DNA of 51,574 nt. Source: Bacillus sp. 491mf (GTDB taxonomy: Bacteria; Bacillota; Bacilli; Bacillales; Bacillaceae_G). How positions within the stretch are numbered: position 1 is the stretch's first letter; each line of letters begins with the position of its first letter. The notes under the pieces were generated by a model, which ran no database searches, had not been told where the DNA came from, and was given only the letters and a program-made list of their open reading frames with translations. The stretch lies in assembly GCF_900112415.1 (NCBI RefSeq), contig NZ_FOLV01000026.1, forward strand, positions 1 through 51,574, written 5' to 3'. Positions 7,224 to 47,382 of this stretch are shown here, in pieces. Made by a program: the position numbers and the translations under genes.

Positions 7224-7889
7224 TTATCTTTTATCAAGTCGCTTCGTAAAGAAGTCCCCAAACACTTGAATAATAAATACGATCACAAGCACAAGAATTG
7301 TTGCCATGAGAGTTACATCGCTATTGCCCCGCTGGAATCCATCTAAATAAGCAAGTGTACCAAGGCCGCCGGCACCAACTGCTCCAGCCATCGCTGTATA
7401 ACCGACAAGGGCAATTGCCGTTACAGTAATACCTGACACAAGTGCTGGCAAAGATTCTGGTATTAATACTTTAAAAATAATTGTACTCGTCTTTGCTCCC
7501 ATCGCTTTCGATGCTTCAATGACACCTTTATCAATTTCACGAAGCGCAATTTCAACCAATCTCGCATAAAACGGCGCTGCTCCAATAATTAATGCTGGCA
7601 ATGCAGCACTTGCTCCAAGAATGGTACCTACAAAAAACTTCGTAAATGGAAGGAGTAAAATAATTAAAATAATGAACGGGATGGAACGAAAAATATTTAC
7701 AAATGCTCCAATTACAACATTGACTGGTTTGTTCTCCCATAAATTATCTTTACTTGTAAGAAACAGTACTAATCCAAGAATAAGCCCCAATACAAACGTT
7801 GCAAGTGTGGCAACTGCCGCCATGTATAGTGTATCCTGAGTAGCCACTAGCATTTTATCCCAATCAACATTTTGAAATAGATTATCCAT
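7224..7889 (-). CDS. metI: Methionine ABC transporter permease MetI (MetP)
   Basis: Membrane channel of the MetNIQ importer, 221 aa with five or so hydrophobic segments. The EAA loop is visible as EASKAMGAKTSTIIFKVLIP, where MetN docks. I chose the ATG at 7889, 7 bases after AGGAGGTG, rather than the TTG two codons upstream. The start overlaps the end of metN by 8 bases. Confidence 0.95.
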   Translation of the reverse strand: MDNLFQNVDWDKMLVATQDTLYMAAVATLATFVLGLILGLVLFLTSKDNLWENKPVNVVIGAFVNIFRSIPFIILIILLLPFTKFFVGTILGASAALPALIIGAAPFYARLVEIALREIDKGVIEASKAMGAKTSTIIFKVLIPESLPALVSGITVTAIALVGYTAMAGAVGAGGLGTLAYLDGFQRGNSDVTLMATILVLVIVFIIQVFGDFFTKRLDKR

Positions 7890-8907
7890 GTGCAATCACC
7901 TCCAGCTCGACTTGTTCCTGTTGAATCGTTGCAATTGCTTTTGCAATCACATCTTCTTTGCCATTTAAATGAACGATTAAGCTTCCATACGCTCCGCTTG
8001 TCGTTTGGGCAATATTCCCTTGTAGAATGCTCACTTCCACTCCATCTTGCTTCATTAACTCCTGTAAAACTGGTCTTTCTACTGCTTCACCAACAAACTG
8101 TAATTTCACTACTTTTCCTTCTGGGTATTTCTCTGCTAAATGTTCAATTGCCTCATCTGCATCTTCAAAATCTGTTATTTGTTTAATGAAGCGCTTTGTA
8201 ATTTCTTGCTGCGGATTACGAAATACCTCTAACACGCTGCCACTTTCAACAATCTTCCCTTTTTCCATAACAGCAACGCGGTTACAAATTTTTTGAATGA
8301 CATGCATTTCATGCGTAATAAGTACAATCGTTAACCCAAGACGCTTATTAATATCGAGAAGCAAATCTAAAATTTGATCTGTCGTTTCCGGATCTAATGC
8401 TGACGTTGCTTCATCACACAATAATACTTTCGGATTATTCGCTAATGCTCTTGCAATACCAACGCGCTGCTTTTGTCCGCCACTTAGCTGAGATGGATAT
8501 GCATCTCCTCGTCCCTCTAAACCAACAAGACGAATTAATTCATCTACGCGCTGATTTCGTTTCTCTTTTGCCACCCCAGCAATCTCAAGCGGGAGAGCAA
8601 TATTTTCACGAACAGTTCGTGACCACAGTAAGTTGAAATGCTGAAAAATCATCCCGATTTCTTGACGTGCTTCTCGAAGTTCCTTACCTGTAATTGCCGA
8701 AATCACACGTGCTCCAACCGTAATCTTTCCAGACGTTGGTTTCTCCAATTGATTAAACAAACGAATTAGCGAACTCTTTCCAGCGCCACTATAGCCAATC
8801 ACCCCGAAAATCTCGCCCTTTTCTATTTGTAAATTCGCATCATCCACAGCGGTAACATCACCGTGTTTAGAACGATATATCTTCCTTACATTTTCTAATA
8901 TAATCAT
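7882..8907 (-). CDS. metN: Methionine ABC transporter ATPase MetN
   Basis: Energises methionine uptake. The 341 residues show Walker A GYSGAGKSS (38-46), signature LSGGQKQRVGIA, Walker B VLLCDEATSALD and the H-loop LITHEMHVI, followed by a C-terminal NIL (ACT-like) domain of about 80 residues, which in this family binds methionine and inhibits transport. Start placed at the ATG 8 bases after AAGGGG rather than at the GTG three codons earlier. First gene of the operon behind the SAM riboswitch. Confidence 0.96.
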   Translation of the reverse strand: MIILENVRKIYRSKHGDVTAVDDANLQIEKGEIFGVIGYSGAGKSSLIRLFNQLEKPTSGKITVGARVISAITGKELREARQEIGMIFQHFNLLWSRTVRENIALPLEIAGVAKEKRNQRVDELIRLVGLEGRGDAYPSQLSGGQKQRVGIARALANNPKVLLCDEATSALDPETTDQILDLLLDINKRLGLTIVLITHEMHVIQKICNRVAVMEKGKIVESGSVLEVFRNPQQEITKRFIKQITDFEDADEAIEHLAEKYPEGKVVKLQFVGEAVERPVLQELMKQDGVEVSILQGNIAQTTSGAYGSLIVHLNGKEDVIAKAIATIQQEQVELEVIAHG

Positions 8908-8930
8908 CGATGTCACCCCTTTTTTAAATT

Positions 8931-9128: not shown

Positions 9129-9302
9129 AAAAAAAACCTTTCTGCTTGAAAATGAGCAGAAAGGTTTATATACACAAATTAACATTATCCTTTCCTCTCA
9201 TCTCTCAAAGCATTCGCTTTGCAGGAATTGGCACCATTTCAACATAAGTTGACGGTTGCCGGGTTTCACAGGGCACAGTCCCTCCACCTCTCTTGATAAG
9301 AG
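9129..9302 (-). promoter_or_regulatory. SAM-I (S-box) riboswitch with terminator controlling metNIQ
   Basis: Aptamer at 9195-9302: the minus strand reads CTCTTATCAAGAGAGGTGG, later GAAACCCGGCAACC and GTGCCAATTCCTGC, and closes P1 with GATGAGAG. These are hallmark S-box elements. It is followed by a terminator whose 12-bp arms are 9134-9145 and 9156-9167 with a long T run. High S-adenosylmethionine is expected to terminate transcription before metN. Confidence 0.95.
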
Positions 9303-17903: not shown

Positions 17904-19124
17904 TCAATACCTTTCTACATTATCTCTTTCTCTAAAGGCCGCTTCCTCTATCTTATAAGACAAAAATGGGCTTTGTGTAAAATACATTCCCGCTAATAAT
18001 AGAGTAATTGCCCCTATACTATACAATTGAGATGTTGGTACATAATCAGCTAATACGCCGCCAAGTAAGTATCCTAAAGGAGCCAGCGCACCTTGAATCG
18101 CATACACAACTGTTAATGCTCTCCCTAAATACTCCCCATCAATACTTGTTTGCAGTATCGTTTGAAATTGCACACCCATTACACCAATCATCATCCACGA
18201 CATAGCAAGTAGAACAAGTGCCGAAAGTAAAGAGCTTGATAAAAACAAATACGATAAAAACCAAGCACTTCCACCGATAAAATTAACTGTAACAAAAACA
18301 CTTTTCAAACGATAACGGAATAGCTTTCCAGACAACATACTCCCCAATAAAGTTCCAATCGATATAGCTGTCATCCACATTCCATATTCTTTCTCTGTAT
18401 GTGCCAATATTGGCATAAGCCCGAGCGGAATGCACATGAGCATATTAATAATCGTAAAAACACAAATAAATGTACGCAGTTCTCCGAGTTTCCAAAAATA
18501 ACGAAGGCCTTCCAAAAATTCTTTTTTATACGCAACTTTCTGATTCGTTTCGTTTTGTTTCAGTCGTGGCAATTTCAATAGTATCCATAGAACAAAAAAG
18601 AGAATCACATACGTAATAGAGTTAAAGAAATACACCATGCCGATTCCAATTGTAGCTATAATCAGACCGGAAACTGCATTACAAATAATATCTAAACTGT
18701 TGTAGGTAAAGGCAAAAACAGAATTCACTTTACCTAACTGCTCTTTTTCTACTAAAGATGGAATCAACGCGCTTTCAGTTGGATAACCAAGATCTGCTGC
18801 TAGCGTTGCGATAAATATAAGCCAAAGTAATACTGGCGGATGTAATTGATTGACGTAGTATAAAAGTACTATTAACGTCAAAATAACAGCTTGTATTCCC
18901 ATCGCTATTAACAACAACGTCTTTTTCGAATATTTATCAATAATTGGTCCGTAAAAAATTTGCAATGCAACAGGTAACAGCGTCACAAAGCTAGCAATCC
19001 CAATCCACGTATTAGAACTCATCGTTTCTTTTACAAACCATATCGTTGCCATGTAATAAAGACTATCCGAGAAATTAGCAACAATTCGTACAAAAAGTAA
19101 CGTAAGTATATTTTTGTTCATCAT
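17904..19124 (-). CDS. MFS transporter, probable drug/metabolite exporter
   Basis: About 406 aa with 12 predicted membrane segments, of the MFS_3 (enterobactin-exporter-like/macrolide-efflux-like) class: FVRIVANFSDSLYYMATIWF at the N-terminus and FQTILQTSIDGEYLGRALTV in the second half. Start at the ATG 10-11 bases after AAAGGAG; an upstream in-frame start exists. Coupled to the deaminase-like gene. The cargo is unknown. Confidence 0.8.
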   Translation of the reverse strand: MMNKNILTLLFVRIVANFSDSLYYMATIWFVKETMSSNTWIGIASFVTLLPVALQIFYGPIIDKYSKKTLLLIAMGIQAVILTLIVLLYYVNQLHPPVLLWLIFIATLAADLGYPTESALIPSLVEKEQLGKVNSVFAFTYNSLDIICNAVSGLIIATIGIGMVYFFNSITYVILFFVLWILLKLPRLKQNETNQKVAYKKEFLEGLRYFWKLGELRTFICVFTIINMLMCIPLGLMPILAHTEKEYGMWMTAISIGTLLGSMLSGKLFRYRLKSVFVTVNFIGGSAWFLSYLFLSSSLLSALVLLAMSWMMIGVMGVQFQTILQTSIDGEYLGRALTVVYAIQGALAPLGYLLGGVLADYVPTSQLYSIGAITLLLAGMYFTQSPFLSYKIEEAAFRERDNVERY

Positions 19125-19307
19125 ATCCAATTTCGCTCCTTTACATTGTTTAATATACATAACCAATGTAAAGGCGGCGGCCGAATGAGACGTTATATAT
19201 CCGTAATATAGTGGTACATATCTTCAACCTTTCTTTTCCATTTTTTATAGGATAACATAAATATAGTGGTTGTTTACTTAATTTTCAGATAACCACTCCC
19301 GTGCCGA

Positions 19308-30030: not shown

Positions 30031-31341
30031 CTATTTATTCACTTGCTTCTTATTTAAATACCAATACACTGGTAATCCTGTTAACACGATACCAATTGAT
30101 AGGAAACATCTAGTTGGCTCATTAATAATCGCACTTCCAATTACAAATAATGATCCTAAAATTGCTAATGCCGGTACGATTGGATATAAAGGTACGCTAT
30201 ATTCACGTTTTTGTCCTGCATTACGCTTTCTTAAAATGAACACGCCGATAAATGTCATAACATAGAAAATATAAATAATAAATACGGAAATCTCAGACAG
30301 TTCATTCGGATCACTAATCAACATTAAAATAATACCGAGTAAAATCTCAACAAAGATTGCGTTTGCTGGCGTTTGAAACTTATCGTTAATTTTTGAAATA
30401 AATTTTGAGAACGGAAGCTGACCACGCTCTGCCATTGATACTGGGATACGTGGGAATGTTAAAATCTTTCCATTTAAACATCCGAATATCGAAACAATAA
30501 CACCTATACTAATCAATTTTCCGCCATATTGGCCTAATAACATATCAGCTGCTGTTGCTGTTGCATTCTCACTTAAGGTAACAATTTGTGGTGCCGGTAA
30601 AACTTTTAATAGAGCCATGTTAATTAATACATATGCTGCTGTTACAATAAGGATCCCAACTGTCATTGCTTTTGGTAATAGCTTTGTCGGATTTTTCATT
30701 TCACCGCCGATAGACGCGAGTAGAATCCAGCCATCATATGCAAATAATGTTGCTAAAATTGCCATCCCCATGCTTTGATTTGCAGACTCTGGTACAATAA
30801 CGTTAAATACATCGCTATTTCCTTTCCAAAATCCCATTACAACAATAAGTATAATTGGAATCATTTTTCCAATTGTTGTTATCGTTTGAACAATGCCCCC
30901 ATACTTTGTTCCCACACTATTTATAGCACCAAGGAACACAACTGTTCCAATCGCAATTGGTAAATTCCATACTTTATCAATGTGGAAAAAGTTTAACATT
31001 AATGAACTAAAATACAATCCCAACGTCCCAATAATTGCTGGTCCATATACAAGTGTTTGCATCCATCCAGATAAATAGCCCCAAAACTTACCATAAATCT
31101 CCTCTAGATATGTATACAAACCACCATTTTTCGGAATTTGCGCTCCAATTTCTGCAACCGTTAAGCCACTTGCTAAGGTTAAAATCCCCCCTATTACCCA
31201 AGCTAAGATTGCCATGTTAGAACTTCCGGCATAATCCAATACCTTACCTGGCTTCATAAACACGCCAGATCCAATAATTGTTCCAACAACGATTGATAAT
31301 GCGACCGTTAAGCCAATTTTGTTTTTGTCATCGTGATGCAT
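30031..31341 (-). CDS. APC-family amino-acid permease/exchanger
   Basis: 436 aa, about 12 membrane helices, amino acid-polyamine-organocation family. The signature GTIIGSGVFMKPG in helix 1 and GGIVQTITTIGKMIPI in the middle resemble L-type exchangers such as the serine/threonine exchanger SteT. The preceding T-box, whose specifier reads as ACC, suggests a threonine link. Shine-Dalgarno AGAGGGAGG before the ATG. Monocistronic. Confidence 0.85.
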   Translation of the reverse strand: MHHDDKNKIGLTVALSIVVGTIIGSGVFMKPGKVLDYAGSSNMAILAWVIGGILTLASGLTVAEIGAQIPKNGGLYTYLEEIYGKFWGYLSGWMQTLVYGPAIIGTLGLYFSSLMLNFFHIDKVWNLPIAIGTVVFLGAINSVGTKYGGIVQTITTIGKMIPIILIVVMGFWKGNSDVFNVIVPESANQSMGMAILATLFAYDGWILLASIGGEMKNPTKLLPKAMTVGILIVTAAYVLINMALLKVLPAPQIVTLSENATATAADMLLGQYGGKLISIGVIVSIFGCLNGKILTFPRIPVSMAERGQLPFSKFISKINDKFQTPANAIFVEILLGIILMLISDPNELSEISVFIIYIFYVMTFIGVFILRKRNAGQKREYSVPLYPIVPALAILGSLFVIGSAIINEPTRCFLSIGIVLTGLPVYWYLNKKQVNK

Positions 31342-31380: not shown

Positions 31381-31640
31381 AAAAAACACTCATCCCTATA
31401 AAAGGGACGAGTGTTATATTCGTGGTTCCACCCTTGTTCCAATTGGCATGAAGACATAAAGCACCAATTGCTCAAGTTTCAGATAACGGCGATTGCCGGC
31501 AAACAATTACTAGATATTCGTTCACTGCTGCAGTTCAAAGGTGGTAAACTATTCTTTCGTATTAGGAAACTCACAGCCAAAGGTTTCCCTCTCTGAAAAT
31601 CGTAAAAAATAGATCATGTCCTTATCAATACTTTTATAAT
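31381..31640 (-). promoter_or_regulatory. T-box leader of the permease, probable Thr (ACC) specifier
   Basis: Antiterminator sequence GGGTGGAACCACG (around 31421-31433) and terminator arms 31404-31415 / 31385-31396 followed by T6. Stem I pairs CTATTTTTTACG with CGAAAGAATAG, and AAGG (31620-31623) with CCTT. The base triplet just above that lower helix on the 3' side is ACC at 31543-31545, followed by A. The same placement in the Met T-box at 37321 gives ATG. Confidence 0.85.
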
Positions 31641-31917: not shown

Positions 31918-32715
31918 CTACGCCTCTTGCAACTGTCCACCTTCACGATCCATTACTTTCTTTAATAGCACAGTTTGAACGACAGTAAATAAGTTACTTG
32001 TAATCCAGTACAAGACAAGTCCTGACGGTGCGGCAAATCCCATAAATAAAATCATTGCCGGCATCATAAATTGCTGGATTTTCAATGCTTGACTTTGTTC
32101 TCCTGTCATATTGGACTGCAATATTTTCATCTGTAGAAATGTTGCCATAGCAGCAAGGGCAGGTAAAATGTGATATGGATCTGCATGTCCCAAATTTACC
32201 CATAAGAAAGAAGCTGAACGAATCTCTTCCGTATGACTAATAGCATAGTACAATGCCGAAAAGACTGGCATTTGAAGTAACAATGGTAAACAACCCATCA
32301 CCGGGTTCACACCGTTCGTTCTCATTAAAATCATCATTTCTTGCTGATATTGCTTTTGTTTCTCCGGATTTTTCGTCGTATCGCCATACTTTTCCTTCAA
32401 CTTCTGAAGCTCTGGCTGCATTTTCTTTGTTTTTAATTGACTGCGATATTGCGTAATCGTCAGTGGCAATAATATCGTACGAACTACAATCGTAATAATA
32501 ATAATGGCAATCCCAAAGCTATGATTCGGCAAATGGTGTGCCACAAACTGCAGCATAACAGAAATTGGATATACAATATAGTGATTCCAAAATCCAGGAC
32601 TAGTCGCATCAATTGGTGCTGCATTTGCACTCGCATTTGCATTAGCACACCCTGATAAAACAACAACAAATAATAATGATAAACTTATGAGCCAAGCTCG
32701 GTATGATTTCAACAT
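31918..32715 (-). CDS. yidC: YidC/Oxa1-family membrane insertase (YidC2 type)
   Basis: Inserts and folds membrane proteins. 265 aa: lipoprotein signal with lipobox LSGC (C23), then the Oxa1 core of five helices with VRTILLPLTITQYRSQLKTK, where the arginine is the hydrophilic-groove residue, and PVMGCLPLLLQMPVFSALYY. Gram-positives have two paralogues; the second (YqjG/YidC2 in B. subtilis) is preceded by the arrest-peptide gene mifM, and here too an ORF of that size is directly upstream. Shine-Dalgarno GGAGGAAG is partly inside a hairpin (32726-32758). Confidence 0.95.
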   Translation of the reverse strand: MLKSYRAWLISLSLLFVVVLSGCANANASANAAPIDATSPGFWNHYIVYPISVMLQFVAHHLPNHSFGIAIIIITIVVRTILLPLTITQYRSQLKTKKMQPELQKLKEKYGDTTKNPEKQKQYQQEMMILMRTNGVNPVMGCLPLLLQMPVFSALYYAISHTEEIRSASFLWVNLGHADPYHILPALAAMATFLQMKILQSNMTGEQSQALKIQQFMMPAMILFMGFAAPSGLVLYWITSNLFTVVQTVLLKKVMDREGGQLQEA

Positions 32716-32722
32716 ATATCTT

Positions 32723-32758
32723 CCTCCAATGTTTCATAATTCGTTAGCGAAACATTGG
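32723..32758 (-). promoter_or_regulatory. Hairpin overlapping the yidC ribosome-binding site
   Basis: Perfect 10-bp inverted repeat CCAATGTTTC (32749-32758) / GAAACATTGG (32726-32735), loop 13 bases. The 3' arm takes in the first two G of the yidC Shine-Dalgarno GGAGG (32723-32727). The 5' arm is the last coding part of the leader ORF, and its TAA stop lies in the loop. Confidence 0.85.
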
Positions 32759-33028
32759 TATATACGGACCTACATCATCACTCTCTCCACTTGCTTCTTG
32801 CCTGCGGACTGAGTGGGCCATTCCATGTTTATAAAAAATAGAGAAAAACGAAATATTCCCTACATGCTTCTCGCACGTTTCCACAAATGCGAAAGCTTTC
32901 TGTCTCCCTCTATATGTTTGTTGGCGTACAAAACGCGAAACATTAGTGAGAAACAAAACTTCTAATAAACAAAGTGCCGTTGTTACAACAGATATATACA
33001 ACATTGCATCTTGCAACAGAAATTCCAT
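32744..33028 (-). CDS. Candidate MifM-like nascent-chain sensor (leader ORF of yidC)
   Basis: 94 aa. One N-terminal membrane segment (about 8-28, MLYISVVTTALCLLEVLFL), a basic middle (RFVRQQTYRGRQK), and a C-terminus EASGESDDVGPYIPMFR with acidic residues E78, E82, D84, D85. The ATG follows AAGGATGTGAAGAG, with its own promoter upstream. It ends 28 bases before yidC, and its last four codons form an arm of the hairpin that hides the yidC ribosome site. B. subtilis MifM has almost the same length, topology and position. Known mechanism there: arrest of translation near the C-terminus, released when the nascent chain is inserted. Arrest here is inference; I do not recognise the stalling sequence. 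Confidence 0.75.
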   Translation of the reverse strand: MEFLLQDAMLYISVVTTALCLLEVLFLTNVSRFVRQQTYRGRQKAFAFVETCEKHVGNISFFSIFYKHGMAHSVRRQEASGESDDVGPYIPMFR

Positions 33029-33050
33029 CTCTTCACATCCTTATGACAGG

Positions 33051-33078
33051 ATTATATCATAATGCTTCAACATGTAAA
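33051..33078 (-). promoter_or_regulatory. SigA promoter of the leader ORF-yidC unit
   Basis: Minus strand TTTACA (33073-33078), 16 bases, TATAAT (33051-33056), 23 bases before the leader ATG. Confidence 0.7.
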
Positions 33079-35658: not shown

Positions 35659-37299
35659 TCATATACCGCTCATAGACTCATTCAGTTTTTCCACTTCTTC
35701 CTTAATCTTCTTCACATCAACACGTTCAAATAACGGTGACACATTTGAAATACGAACTGGGCATTCAGTCGTATAAGACCAACCTCTCTTTGAAACTCCT
35801 AACATTTGCTCTACTTGTACAGACGAAAATGGAAGAAACGGTGCCAACACTTGTGCAAAATTCACGATGAGGTGAATACAGTTTCTCATCGTGTCATCAC
35901 ACGCTGTCTTATCTTCTTTTATTTGTGTCCACGGCTTCCTTTCATCGAAATATTTATTCGCATAGCGAATATGTTCAAAAATTGTCTCCAGCGCTTGTTT
36001 AAAATGCGCTTTTTCAATAGACTCTCCTACTTCAACGTATATTCCCTTTAGCTTTTCATCCAATTCCTTATTTATTTGACCAGTCGGCACAGCATTCTCA
36101 TAATATTTTTCAAGAAACTTCAGCGTCCTGTTTACAAAATTTCCGTACGCTCCTAACAATTCACTATTATGGCTATAAATGAACTCCCGCCACGAAAAAT
36201 CCGTATCTCGATTTTCAGGTGCGTTTACAGTTAAAAAATAACGAATTGAATCCGGATGATATTCCTTCAATATGTCTGGAACCCAAACAGCCCAGTTTTT
36301 ACTTGTTGATAACTTTCTTTTTTCAATTGTTAAATATTCATTCGAAACAATATATTGAGGCAATGCTTCTGCTTGTACCCCCTGCAAAATAGCTGACCAA
36401 ATAATTGTATGGAACGGAATATTATCTTTACCATGCACATAATACGTCCGTGTATCCTCTCGCCAAAATGGTGAATCATCACCGTTTGTTTCTTGCGCCC
36501 ATTGCTTACTTGCTGAATAATAACCAGACACAGCCTCAATCCACACATACACCTTCTTATCCTCATATCCAGAAACGGGAACGCTCACGCCAATTGGTAA
36601 ATCTCTTGAAACAGCGCGGTCTTGTAAACCTTCTTGTAAGTAGCGAAGCGTTAATTGCACTGCATTCTCACGCCACGTTCCATTTTGTTTCACCGCTTCT
36701 ACATACTCTTCTAACTGCTTTTGTAATGAAGTTAATGCAAAATAAAAATGCTCTGTTTCCTTAATTGTCGGCGCCTTGCCGCACAGTTTACATGTTTTCT
36801 CGAGCAAATCTATCGGATCTAAAATAGCAGAACACGCATCGCACTGATCACCACGCGCACCTGCACCGCAATGTGGACAAGTTCCTTCCACATAACGATC
36901 TGGCAAAAACTGTACACAAGTCTCGCAGTATGTTTGCTCTACTGTCTTTTTATAAATAAGCCCCTTTTCTAAAAGCTCTAAGAAAATATTCTGAACGACT
37001 TGATGATGAGAAGCAGAATCCGTACGAGCATAATAATCATACGAAAAACCTAGCTCCTGAAAACATCGTTCAAATTCTTCATGATAGCGATCCGCAATTG
37101 TTTTAACGCTTACCTTTTCCTGTTTAGCTCGAATCGTAATCGGTGTACCGTTACAATCACTTCCTGATACATATAGCACATTGTCCCCTTTTAACCGATA
37201 ATAACGCGCTAAAATATCCCCTGGCAGTAAACTAGCAATATGACCAAGATGCAACGATCCGTTTGCGTATGGCCAAGCGCCTCCAATAAAAATATTCAT
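35659..37299 (-). CDS. metG: Methionyl-tRNA synthetase (short, second type)
   Basis: Charges tRNA-Met. 546 aa, lacking the C-terminal tRNA-binding EMAP domain of the main Bacillus MetRS. HIGH motif HLGH (17-20), KMSKS motif as KRKLSTSKN, and a double zinc knuckle with eight cysteines ([31 protein letters not shown]). It is preceded by a Met-specific T-box, so it is induced when tRNA-Met is uncharged. The four-knuckle type is sometimes found as an antibiotic-tolerant second copy; whether another MetRS exists cannot be seen here. Confidence 0.95.
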
Positions 37300-37320: not shown

Positions 37321-37640
37321 TAAAAAAGCCCCGCCCTTATCTTCTAAAAAGATAAGGACGAGGCTGTATATACAGTCGTGGTACCACCTTATTTCGTCAA
37401 TTGCTCACACAATTGACCTCTGCGAGTACGGAGCAATCATTGCTCGTATACTGTGACTTTGATAACGAGAGCCAACGCTCGTCGCCGCCTACTATTATCA
37501 AGTGATAAGTTCAGGACGAAGCTCAGAGGCCATTGTTCAAATGATCATTCTTGCTTCTTTTCAGCTCCCGAAGCTCTCTGGAAAGAATGAATTCATTCTA
37601 CTTTTCCTCTTCAACGCTTTTCATATGTAATTCACATTGT
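37321..37640 (-). promoter_or_regulatory. T-box leader of metG with Met (ATG) specifier
   Basis: Antiterminator GGTGGTACCACG (37377-37388), terminator arms around 37351-37365 and 37327-37343 followed by TTTTTT. Specifier ATG at 37531-37533, just above the AGAGG/CCTCT helix of stem I. Confidence 0.92.
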
Positions 37641-44583: not shown

Positions 44584-44622
44584 AAAAAAGCAATGAGCCC
44601 GCTGCTCATTGCTTTTCTTTTT
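44584..44622 (+). terminator. Terminator after ferritin
   Basis: AAAAAGCAATGAGC-CCGCT-GCTCATTGCTTTTCTTTTTT. The same 34 bases occur as the nupC terminator at 47346-47380. Confidence 0.9.
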
Positions 44623-46984: not shown

Positions 46985-47340
46985 TTGTGTAGTGTAATCC
47001 TTTCTTTTTAAACGGTAAAAAACAGTTCGCTGTGCCTAGGCGGACAGTAGAAAACTGTATGTGAGGCATCTCCCTCCTTACCTCGAGGGATTCTTCAATC
47101 TTTCATTTCCGAGTTCTTCACATCTTCTGTGTTCTTCACCTGTTAACTCCAGGCTCGAGCTAGAGTGCTCTTGACGAGGCGGCAAGTTTCACTTTATGTT
47201 ACGCTCTGCAAATCCACTCGCACTTCTAGTAAGAAGTTACTTTGTCACAGGGCTTCAATCTTAGAATTTCTCCCCCAAGTGCCTGTCAGCTACCAGGCGA
47301 CTTGGTTCTTATGAGCAGTGCCCAGCTAAGCTGAGTACAC
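46985..47340 (-). other. Unassigned structured region, possible ncRNA or IS200/605-type remnant
   Basis: Between two convergent terminators, clearly richer in G+C than its surroundings and without a usable reading frame. Strong hairpins on the minus strand: CCAAGTCGCCTG/CAGGC..ACTTGG, CTTCT/AGAAG, CCCTC/GAGGG, CAGTT/AACTG. The block GAAGAATCCCTCGAGG to GGAGGGAGATGCCTC looks like the right end (omega-RNA/guide boundary) of IS605-type tnpB elements, but no tnpB is present. Strand is a guess. Confidence 0.4.
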
Positions 47341-47343
47341 AAC

Positions 47344-47382
47344 AAAAAAAGCAATGAGCCCGCTGCTCATTGCTTTTCTTAT
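47344..47382 (-). terminator. Terminator after nupC
   Basis: Same hairpin as at 44584: GCAATGAGC-AGCGG-GCTCATTGC flanked by A and T runs on this strand. Confidence 0.85.

Follow-up and report, generated by a model that had tools for sequence, protein, structure and literature searches.

MifM (YqzJ) of B. subtilis has 95 codons and one N-terminal membrane segment, and lies before the second yidC gene. In the available sections of PMC4423224, the critical residues of MifM are R69, I70, W73, I74, M80, N81, and the acidic DEED at 86–89. Stalling of MifM begins with D89, the final residue of DEED, in the P-site and also occurs at each of the three codons that follow; the stalled ribosome opens a stem-loop containing the yidC Shine-Dalgarno (SD) (same sections of PMC4423224). 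An antisense RNA, ncr2058, is listed opposite yqzJ (mifM) in a review table (PMC4374534, table as available).

The name MifM was used broadly in a 2024 survey (572 sequences, 592 Firmicutes genomes). According to the accessible part of PMC10987492, a member is an upstream ORF (uORF) of yidC with a localisation signal and an acidic stretch within residues 70–100, and the median membrane-to-acidic distance of the class is 54. This survey was the only work on MifM homologs across Firmicutes found in the open-access literature. The main texts of open-access articles yielded nothing on MifM in megaterium or cereus, on the region upstream of YidC2 in Bacillus cereus, or on Bacillus/Listeria yidC2 arrest peptides. 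CliM is a yidC-monitoring arrest peptide of Clostridia with an N-terminal membrane segment and a K-Y-x-I-W motif (accessible text of PMC13183943). ApcA of actinobacteria is an arrest peptide with an R-A-P-G-type tail, located before a presumed secondary yidC (accessible text of PMC7897499).

In this study, a leader ORF upstream of yidC in Bacillus sp. 491mf was analysed. The window, that is, the whole stretch of DNA analysed, was 51,574 nt long (NZ_FOLV01000026.1, positions 1–51,574). Judged from its anatomy, its conservation, and a model of SD opening, the leader would very probably be an arrest peptide that acts, like MifM, as a monitoring substrate for the YidC pathway.

Leader and yidC of the window

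The sequence-only reading had described a 94-codon ORF with its own promoter-like site, an SD, and one N-terminal membrane segment, ending 28 nt before yidC. This anatomy was confirmed (Table 1). The 28-nt gap runs from the leader stop to the yidC ATG (32715), and both genes are on the minus strand.

Table 1. Features of the leader–yidC region, in window coordinates
Feature	Position	Strand	Remarks
Promoter-like site, TTTACA-16-TATAAT	33051..33078	minus	TG before second hexamer; 11/12 consensus positions
Leader SD, AAGGATGTG	33034..33042	minus	assigned from sequence, 5' of leader ATG
Leader ORF, candidate YidC-monitoring arrest peptide	32744..33028	minus	ATG start, 94 aa
Membrane segment, about residues 9–27	32948..33004	minus	best 19-residue hydropathy window, mean 2.21
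Conserved tail, residues 67–94, KHxxxHSVxRQEAxGExDDxGPYxPxFx, candidate arrest region	32747..32830	minus	18/28 identical to Priestia
Outer stem of MFE fold	32713..32766	minus	codons 88–90 pair with the stretch ending in the yidC ATG
Hairpin 5' arm, CCAATGTTTC	32749..32758	minus	codons P91–F93 and first base of R94; perfect 10 bp
Hairpin 3' arm, GAAACATTGG	32726..32735	minus	10/10 pairs kept in Priestia, 3 double changes
yidC SD, GGAGG	32723..32727	minus	7 nt from ATG; first two G in hairpin
yidC, 265-aa insertase, proposed regulated gene	31918..32715	minus	PF02096, E 2.2e-52

Pfam and NCBIfam gave no match to the leader up to E 1. The charge was −2 ahead of the membrane segment and +5 over the next 20 residues, and an N-out/C-in topology was predicted. 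By simple hydropathy rather than the predictors of the survey, 67 residues followed the hydrophobic stretch 9–27. The definition given in the accessible part of PMC10987492 was compared with these features. The leader is a small same-strand uORF directly before yidC, and its N-terminal localisation signal is followed by a soluble part of at least 30 residues. Its 5-residue charge is −0.6 at residue 81, below the level of −0.3 used for residues 70–100. In silico, the mRNA also formed a structure that hides the SD and opens when a ribosome reaches the tail.

The tail differs from that of MifM in most of the residues reported as critical (available sections of PMC4423224). When the two were aligned on the last D, R69, I70, W73, I74, M80, and N81 had no counterparts in the window leader, where HSVxRQEAxGExDDxGPYxPxF stands in place of the R-I, W-I, and M-N residues. 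A pattern scan found neither RIxxWI nor any W in the window or Priestia leader, and the window leader falls outside the MifM sensu stricto motif (RIxxWIxxxxxMNxxxxDEED). The acidic cluster ends at D89 in MifM and at D85 in the window, and x-G comes next in both. The C-terminus had been described as unrecognised. That description is half right: the six MifM residues are absent, but the corresponding position holds an acidic cluster and then D-x-G, and an acidic stretch of this kind is what the broad published definition of MifM is built on (accessible part of PMC10987492). CliM resembles the window leader in its N-terminal membrane segment and its link to yidC, but the pattern scan found no KYxIW in the window leader; nor was an R-A-P-G-type tail like that of ApcA found (accessible texts of PMC13183943 and PMC7897499). 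The RAPP/RAPG-like pattern R-[AG]-[PG]-[PG] was absent from the leader in the same kind of scan, which places it outside the RAPP-like RQH class.

The best local alignment of the window tail with MifM placed RRQEASGESDDVG on RMNSPVNDEEDAG, and 1520 of 5000 shuffles scored as well. The corresponding number was 114 of 5000 for the Priestia tail, and 14 of 5000 for the tail of a Listeria leader described below. A phmmer search of PDB chains with the window leader at E 10 gave three chance rows, none of them MifM. The profile comparison with MifM that had been suggested gave no link either: hmmsearch of the PDB chains, a set that includes full MifM, gave 0 matches with a weak profile of two rows (window and Priestia). 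As the alignment of the window tail by itself is no better than that of shuffles, we do not claim that the leader descends from MifM.

The window YidC scored 248.7 bits on the NCBI SpoIIIJ model, below the cut-off of 377. Among the seven other YidC proteins aligned, the nearest was the leader-linked YidC of Priestia with 48%, and the other six had 33–44%. Because of the score and this nearest relative, the window YidC was treated as a putative second-type YidC. It matched 69 records of a plasmid collection, which was the source of the homologues and seems to include some misfiled chromosomes. The yidC regions of seven records (L003–L009) were examined, and a second Listeria record (L010) was examined for the leader region only. 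Five of the seven regions (L004, L006–L009) had no such leader. Three of these five are rnpA-linked by annotation, and the other two showed no ORF of at least 50 aa ending within 80 nt of yidC.

Tail and hairpin in Priestia and Listeria

The window leader was compared with 72,556 plasmid records by tblastn. Three records were matched in all, and the single significant match was in plasmid NZ_CP118719.1 of Priestia aryabhattai (37% identity over query residues 1–93, E 8e-10). The other two, from Rhizobium and Agrobacterium, had E values of 6 and 7 and were discarded. The Priestia leader, annotated as a hypothetical protein, ends 29 nt before yidC. TATGATATAAT at the window promoter recurs unchanged before it, and the −10 region is conserved; CATAAGGATGTGAA of the leader SD is unchanged as well. 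On the Priestia plasmid, the leader–yidC pair directly follows a group II intron reverse transcriptase (L003:633-3576), and an accessory insertase travels there with its own candidate sensor.

Conservation was concentrated in the tail. Residues 67–94 were identical at 18 of 28 positions and residues 1–66 at 18 of 61 aligned positions (Fisher p 0.0026), a comparison of two species. The first 13 residues were conserved about as much as the tail (8/13). The middle (residues 14–61) shared 9 of 43 aligned residues and was variable in length. Seven synonymous codon changes were found in the tail, all in codons 67–86. This part lies outside the inner hairpin and has 13 of 20 residues in common, and it is the safest candidate for a peptide-level signal. 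Codons 91–94 are tied by RNA pairing. The G-P-Y codons 87–89 are identical at all three positions in the window and Priestia, and codons 88–90 are in the outer stem of the MFE fold; for these reasons codons 87–89 and 88–90 may also be kept at the RNA level. P88 and P91 had been named as residues that may contribute to arrest. P91 was rejected as clear evidence of arrest at the peptide level, since its CCA codon belongs to the hairpin arm and pairing of the RNA with the SD could alone keep this codon.

A perfect 10-bp hairpin joins the end of the leader to the first two G of the yidC SD, as the sequence-only reading had stated. Its statement that the last four codons and the stop lie in the hairpin was slightly loose: the arm holds P91, M92, F93, and one base of R94, and the remainder of R94 and the stop codon sit in the 13-nt loop. 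In the MFE fold, the outer stem encloses this nested hairpin; the centroid fold has the inner stem alone. The hairpin-arm 10-mer AATGTTTCGC (32747-32756) is also present at 32935-32944, in leader codons 29–32, which gives the yidC-side arm two possible partners. Neither the Priestia nor the Listeria leader contains AATGTTTCGC.

Perfect arms of at least 10 bp with loops of 3–25 nt are common, with 24 in the 51.6-kb window. A helix of at least 10 bp touching the SD was rare, occurring in 1 of 1000 controls with synonymous codons and shuffled spacers; the SD opening cost of the window was matched by 50 of 1000 such controls. The fold z of the window hairpin was −1.66, and equal stability was reached in 14 of 200 shuffles. 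Among 17 window starts with at least 4/5 SD bases (32 examined), yidC ranked third in SD opening cost. By energy, the window hairpin is only moderately unusual. The costs at the five leaderless yidC loci were 2.0, 3.2, 8.3, 9.0, and 3.8 kcal/mol. Two of these (9.0 and 8.3, the latter with a poorly assigned SD) were at least as high as the window value, and SD opening cost alone is therefore not diagnostic.

The Priestia hairpin has a different sequence, with all ten pairs kept, three of them by double changes (A-U to G-C, G-C to A-U, and C-G to U-A). When the partner was slid by 1–3 columns, zero double changes were left. In a shuffle control of covariation, 59 of 500 reached the observed level; this control is weak for an alignment of two rows. 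The fold z in Priestia was −4.54, with 0 of 200 shuffles as stable, and an extended stem lies over the yidC SD there too. Against 1000 controls, the Priestia opening cost was matched by 3 and the SD helix by 0. The results indicated that the hairpin, being conserved in Priestia, is more than chance, and a chance origin was rejected from the rarity of an SD helix in the controls and the ten retained pairs.

In L. monocytogenes, a MifM-like leader of 93 codons (WP_003722506) lies 36 nt upstream of the second yidC (NZ_LR134403.1; L005:1099-1419). It is annotated as a hypothetical protein, carries an acidic DDED, and ends in ...NWLAITRKCSAITDDEDSFSFSNV. Like the window leader, it has an acidic cluster, an SD hairpin, and SD opening near the tail codons; unlike it, the Listeria leader has W-L near the position of MifM W-I. 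BLAST gave no match between the Listeria leader and the window or Priestia leader. Its hairpin with the SD region was equalled in stability by 5 of 200 shuffles, and against 1000 controls its opening cost was matched by 36 and its SD helix by 20. The second Listeria strain (L010) differed at 14 of 342 nt, comprising nine synonymous codons and five amino-acid changes. All five amino-acid changes were at codons 51–64. The last 29 codons had two synonymous changes and zero amino-acid changes.

No further relatives were found. Viral contigs were scanned with the window and Priestia leaders, the window YidC, and the leader and YidC alignments, and no relative was detected. Phages searched by tblastn with the window leader, and plasmids searched by megablast with the window region, gave none. 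The Priestia leader found no further significant plasmid record (one chance row, E 3, was dropped). The Listeria leader found only itself and the second Listeria strain among the plasmids (one chance row, E 1, was dropped). The sole locus from the genome-contig scan, a 23-residue match on a Mycolicibacterium contig (L001), was dropped as spurious because the single YidC match detected for that genome was on another contig.

Modelled SD opening and explanations of the leader

The effect of ribosome position on the SD was modelled by masking the ribosome-covered mRNA for each P-site codon and calculating the cost of freeing GGAGG. Footprints of 13–18 nt and two downstream lengths were used, and the first codon below half cost was taken as the opening position. 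The opening cost in the window was 6.5 kcal/mol with the P-site at D85, 3.5 kcal/mol at V86, and 0.6 kcal/mol at G87. With the P-site at D85, the SD was closed at footprints of 13–17 nt and half open at 18 nt; in the model, opening needs the P-site at V86 or later. This speaks against a stall at D85, the counterpart of the first stall site of MifM, as the position that would open the hairpin. The first codon below half cost was 86–87 in the window, 84–86 in Priestia, and 84–86 in Listeria. The last acidic residue is D85 in the window, E85 in Priestia, and D86 in Listeria, and SD opening was always at most two codons away. When 45 nt of yidC were folded as well, about 5 kcal/mol remained after opening in Priestia. 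The distance from the membrane segment to the last acidic residue was 58 residues in the window, 59 in Priestia, and 50 in Listeria, values close to the median of 54 given for MifM in the survey.

The MifM-type logic proposed in the sequence-only reading gained support from Priestia, which keeps the order of leader and yidC, the tail, and the hairpin, and from the model, in which the SD opens just past the acidic cluster. Since SD opening falls near the last acidic residue and MifM stalls from the end of DEED onward, a MifM-like mechanism is the most likely one. We infer that a single promoter would give a joint transcript of the leader and yidC. In the default state, some of the yidC SD would be buried in the hairpin, as would the start codon in the MFE fold, and yidC translation would therefore be low. 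YidC would have to insert the N-out/C-in segment before the tail has left the exit tunnel. With prompt insertion, pulling would free the chain and the ribosome would finish. With slow insertion, the tail would stall the ribosome at about codons 86–90 (V-G-P-Y-I), just past D84–D85. The stalled ribosome would cover the 5' arm, the SD would be freed, and YidC would rise. In MifM the opening of the stem-loop by the stalled ribosome is described; for the window, the SD is in a hairpin and the stall is a predicted one.

In the model, the window SD was freed with the P-site anywhere from codon 87 through the stop codon. Translational coupling without regulated arrest would also use this property: terminating or slow leader ribosomes would open the hairpin, yidC output would be proportional to leader translation, and the membrane segment and tail would have another role or none. 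Such coupling is unlikely. It does not require residues 67–86 to be conserved despite seven synonymous changes, and the membrane segment and its spacing match YidC-monitoring substrates. The conserved N-terminal 13 residues would suit a small membrane protein that has a function of its own, e.g., a YidC partner, that shares the operon with yidC while the hairpin only tunes yidC. Known families speak neither for nor against such a protein, but the middle of the leader is poorly conserved and varies in length, and the tail leads into the hairpin in register with SD opening; this explanation is very improbable. The place of the hairpin between leader and gene would fit a part of a terminator under the control of leader translation. 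Transcription attenuation of this kind can hardly be upheld: there is no T-run 3' of the hairpin, the stem pairs with the SD in both the window and Priestia, and a transcription terminator was rejected because the scan showed no terminator-like site there.

The relation to MifM may be read in two ways. Tentatively, the window and Priestia leaders could form a separate class of YidC sensors in two genera, with HSVxRQEAxGExDDxGPY making other tunnel contacts than MifM; this is a possibility of some weight that falls short of being probable. Only the logic of an acidic cluster plus a hairpin would then be common to MifM, and this logic would have arisen repeatedly or outlasted a full replacement of the tunnel contacts. 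Most likely, the leader is a diverged member or a close functional equivalent of the known MifM class. If the tail arrests ribosomes, it would represent a second tunnel-contact code that serves the same sensing purpose among relatives of B. subtilis, and the mRNA switch would be kept in register. It would then offer a natural experiment that separates what is constrained (the acidic cluster at the peptidyl-transferase centre and the hairpin register) from what is free (the mid-tunnel contacts), and it could show how arrest peptides follow the differences between species in uL22 and uL4.

Other elements in the window

Several other elements were observed in the window. On the minus strand at 19119-19240, a 27-nt mini-ORF (MYHYITDI, 19219-19193), preceded by AAAGG, lies upstream of an MFS transporter ORF (17904-19166). 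A perfect 11-bp hairpin has its arms at 19164-19174 and 19138-19148, and the 3' arm includes part of the SD of the transporter, which has in-frame ATGs at 19124 and 19121. We take the mini-ORF and hairpin to resemble a leader-peptide translational attenuator.

Rfam T-box leaders were found on the minus strand at 31400-31637, before an amino acid permease (30031-31341), and at 37351-37623, before a methionyl-tRNA synthetase-like gene (35659-37299). An ABC ATPase with a NIL domain (7882-8916) is preceded by a SAM riboswitch at 9195-9302 (minus strand). Two hairpins, 44586-44616 and 47347-47377, have identical 13-bp arms (AAAAGCAATGAGC) and are 2.8 kb apart. A match to group II intron D1-D4 at 47194-47328 (50.7 bits, threshold 49 bits) adjoins a nucleoside transporter.
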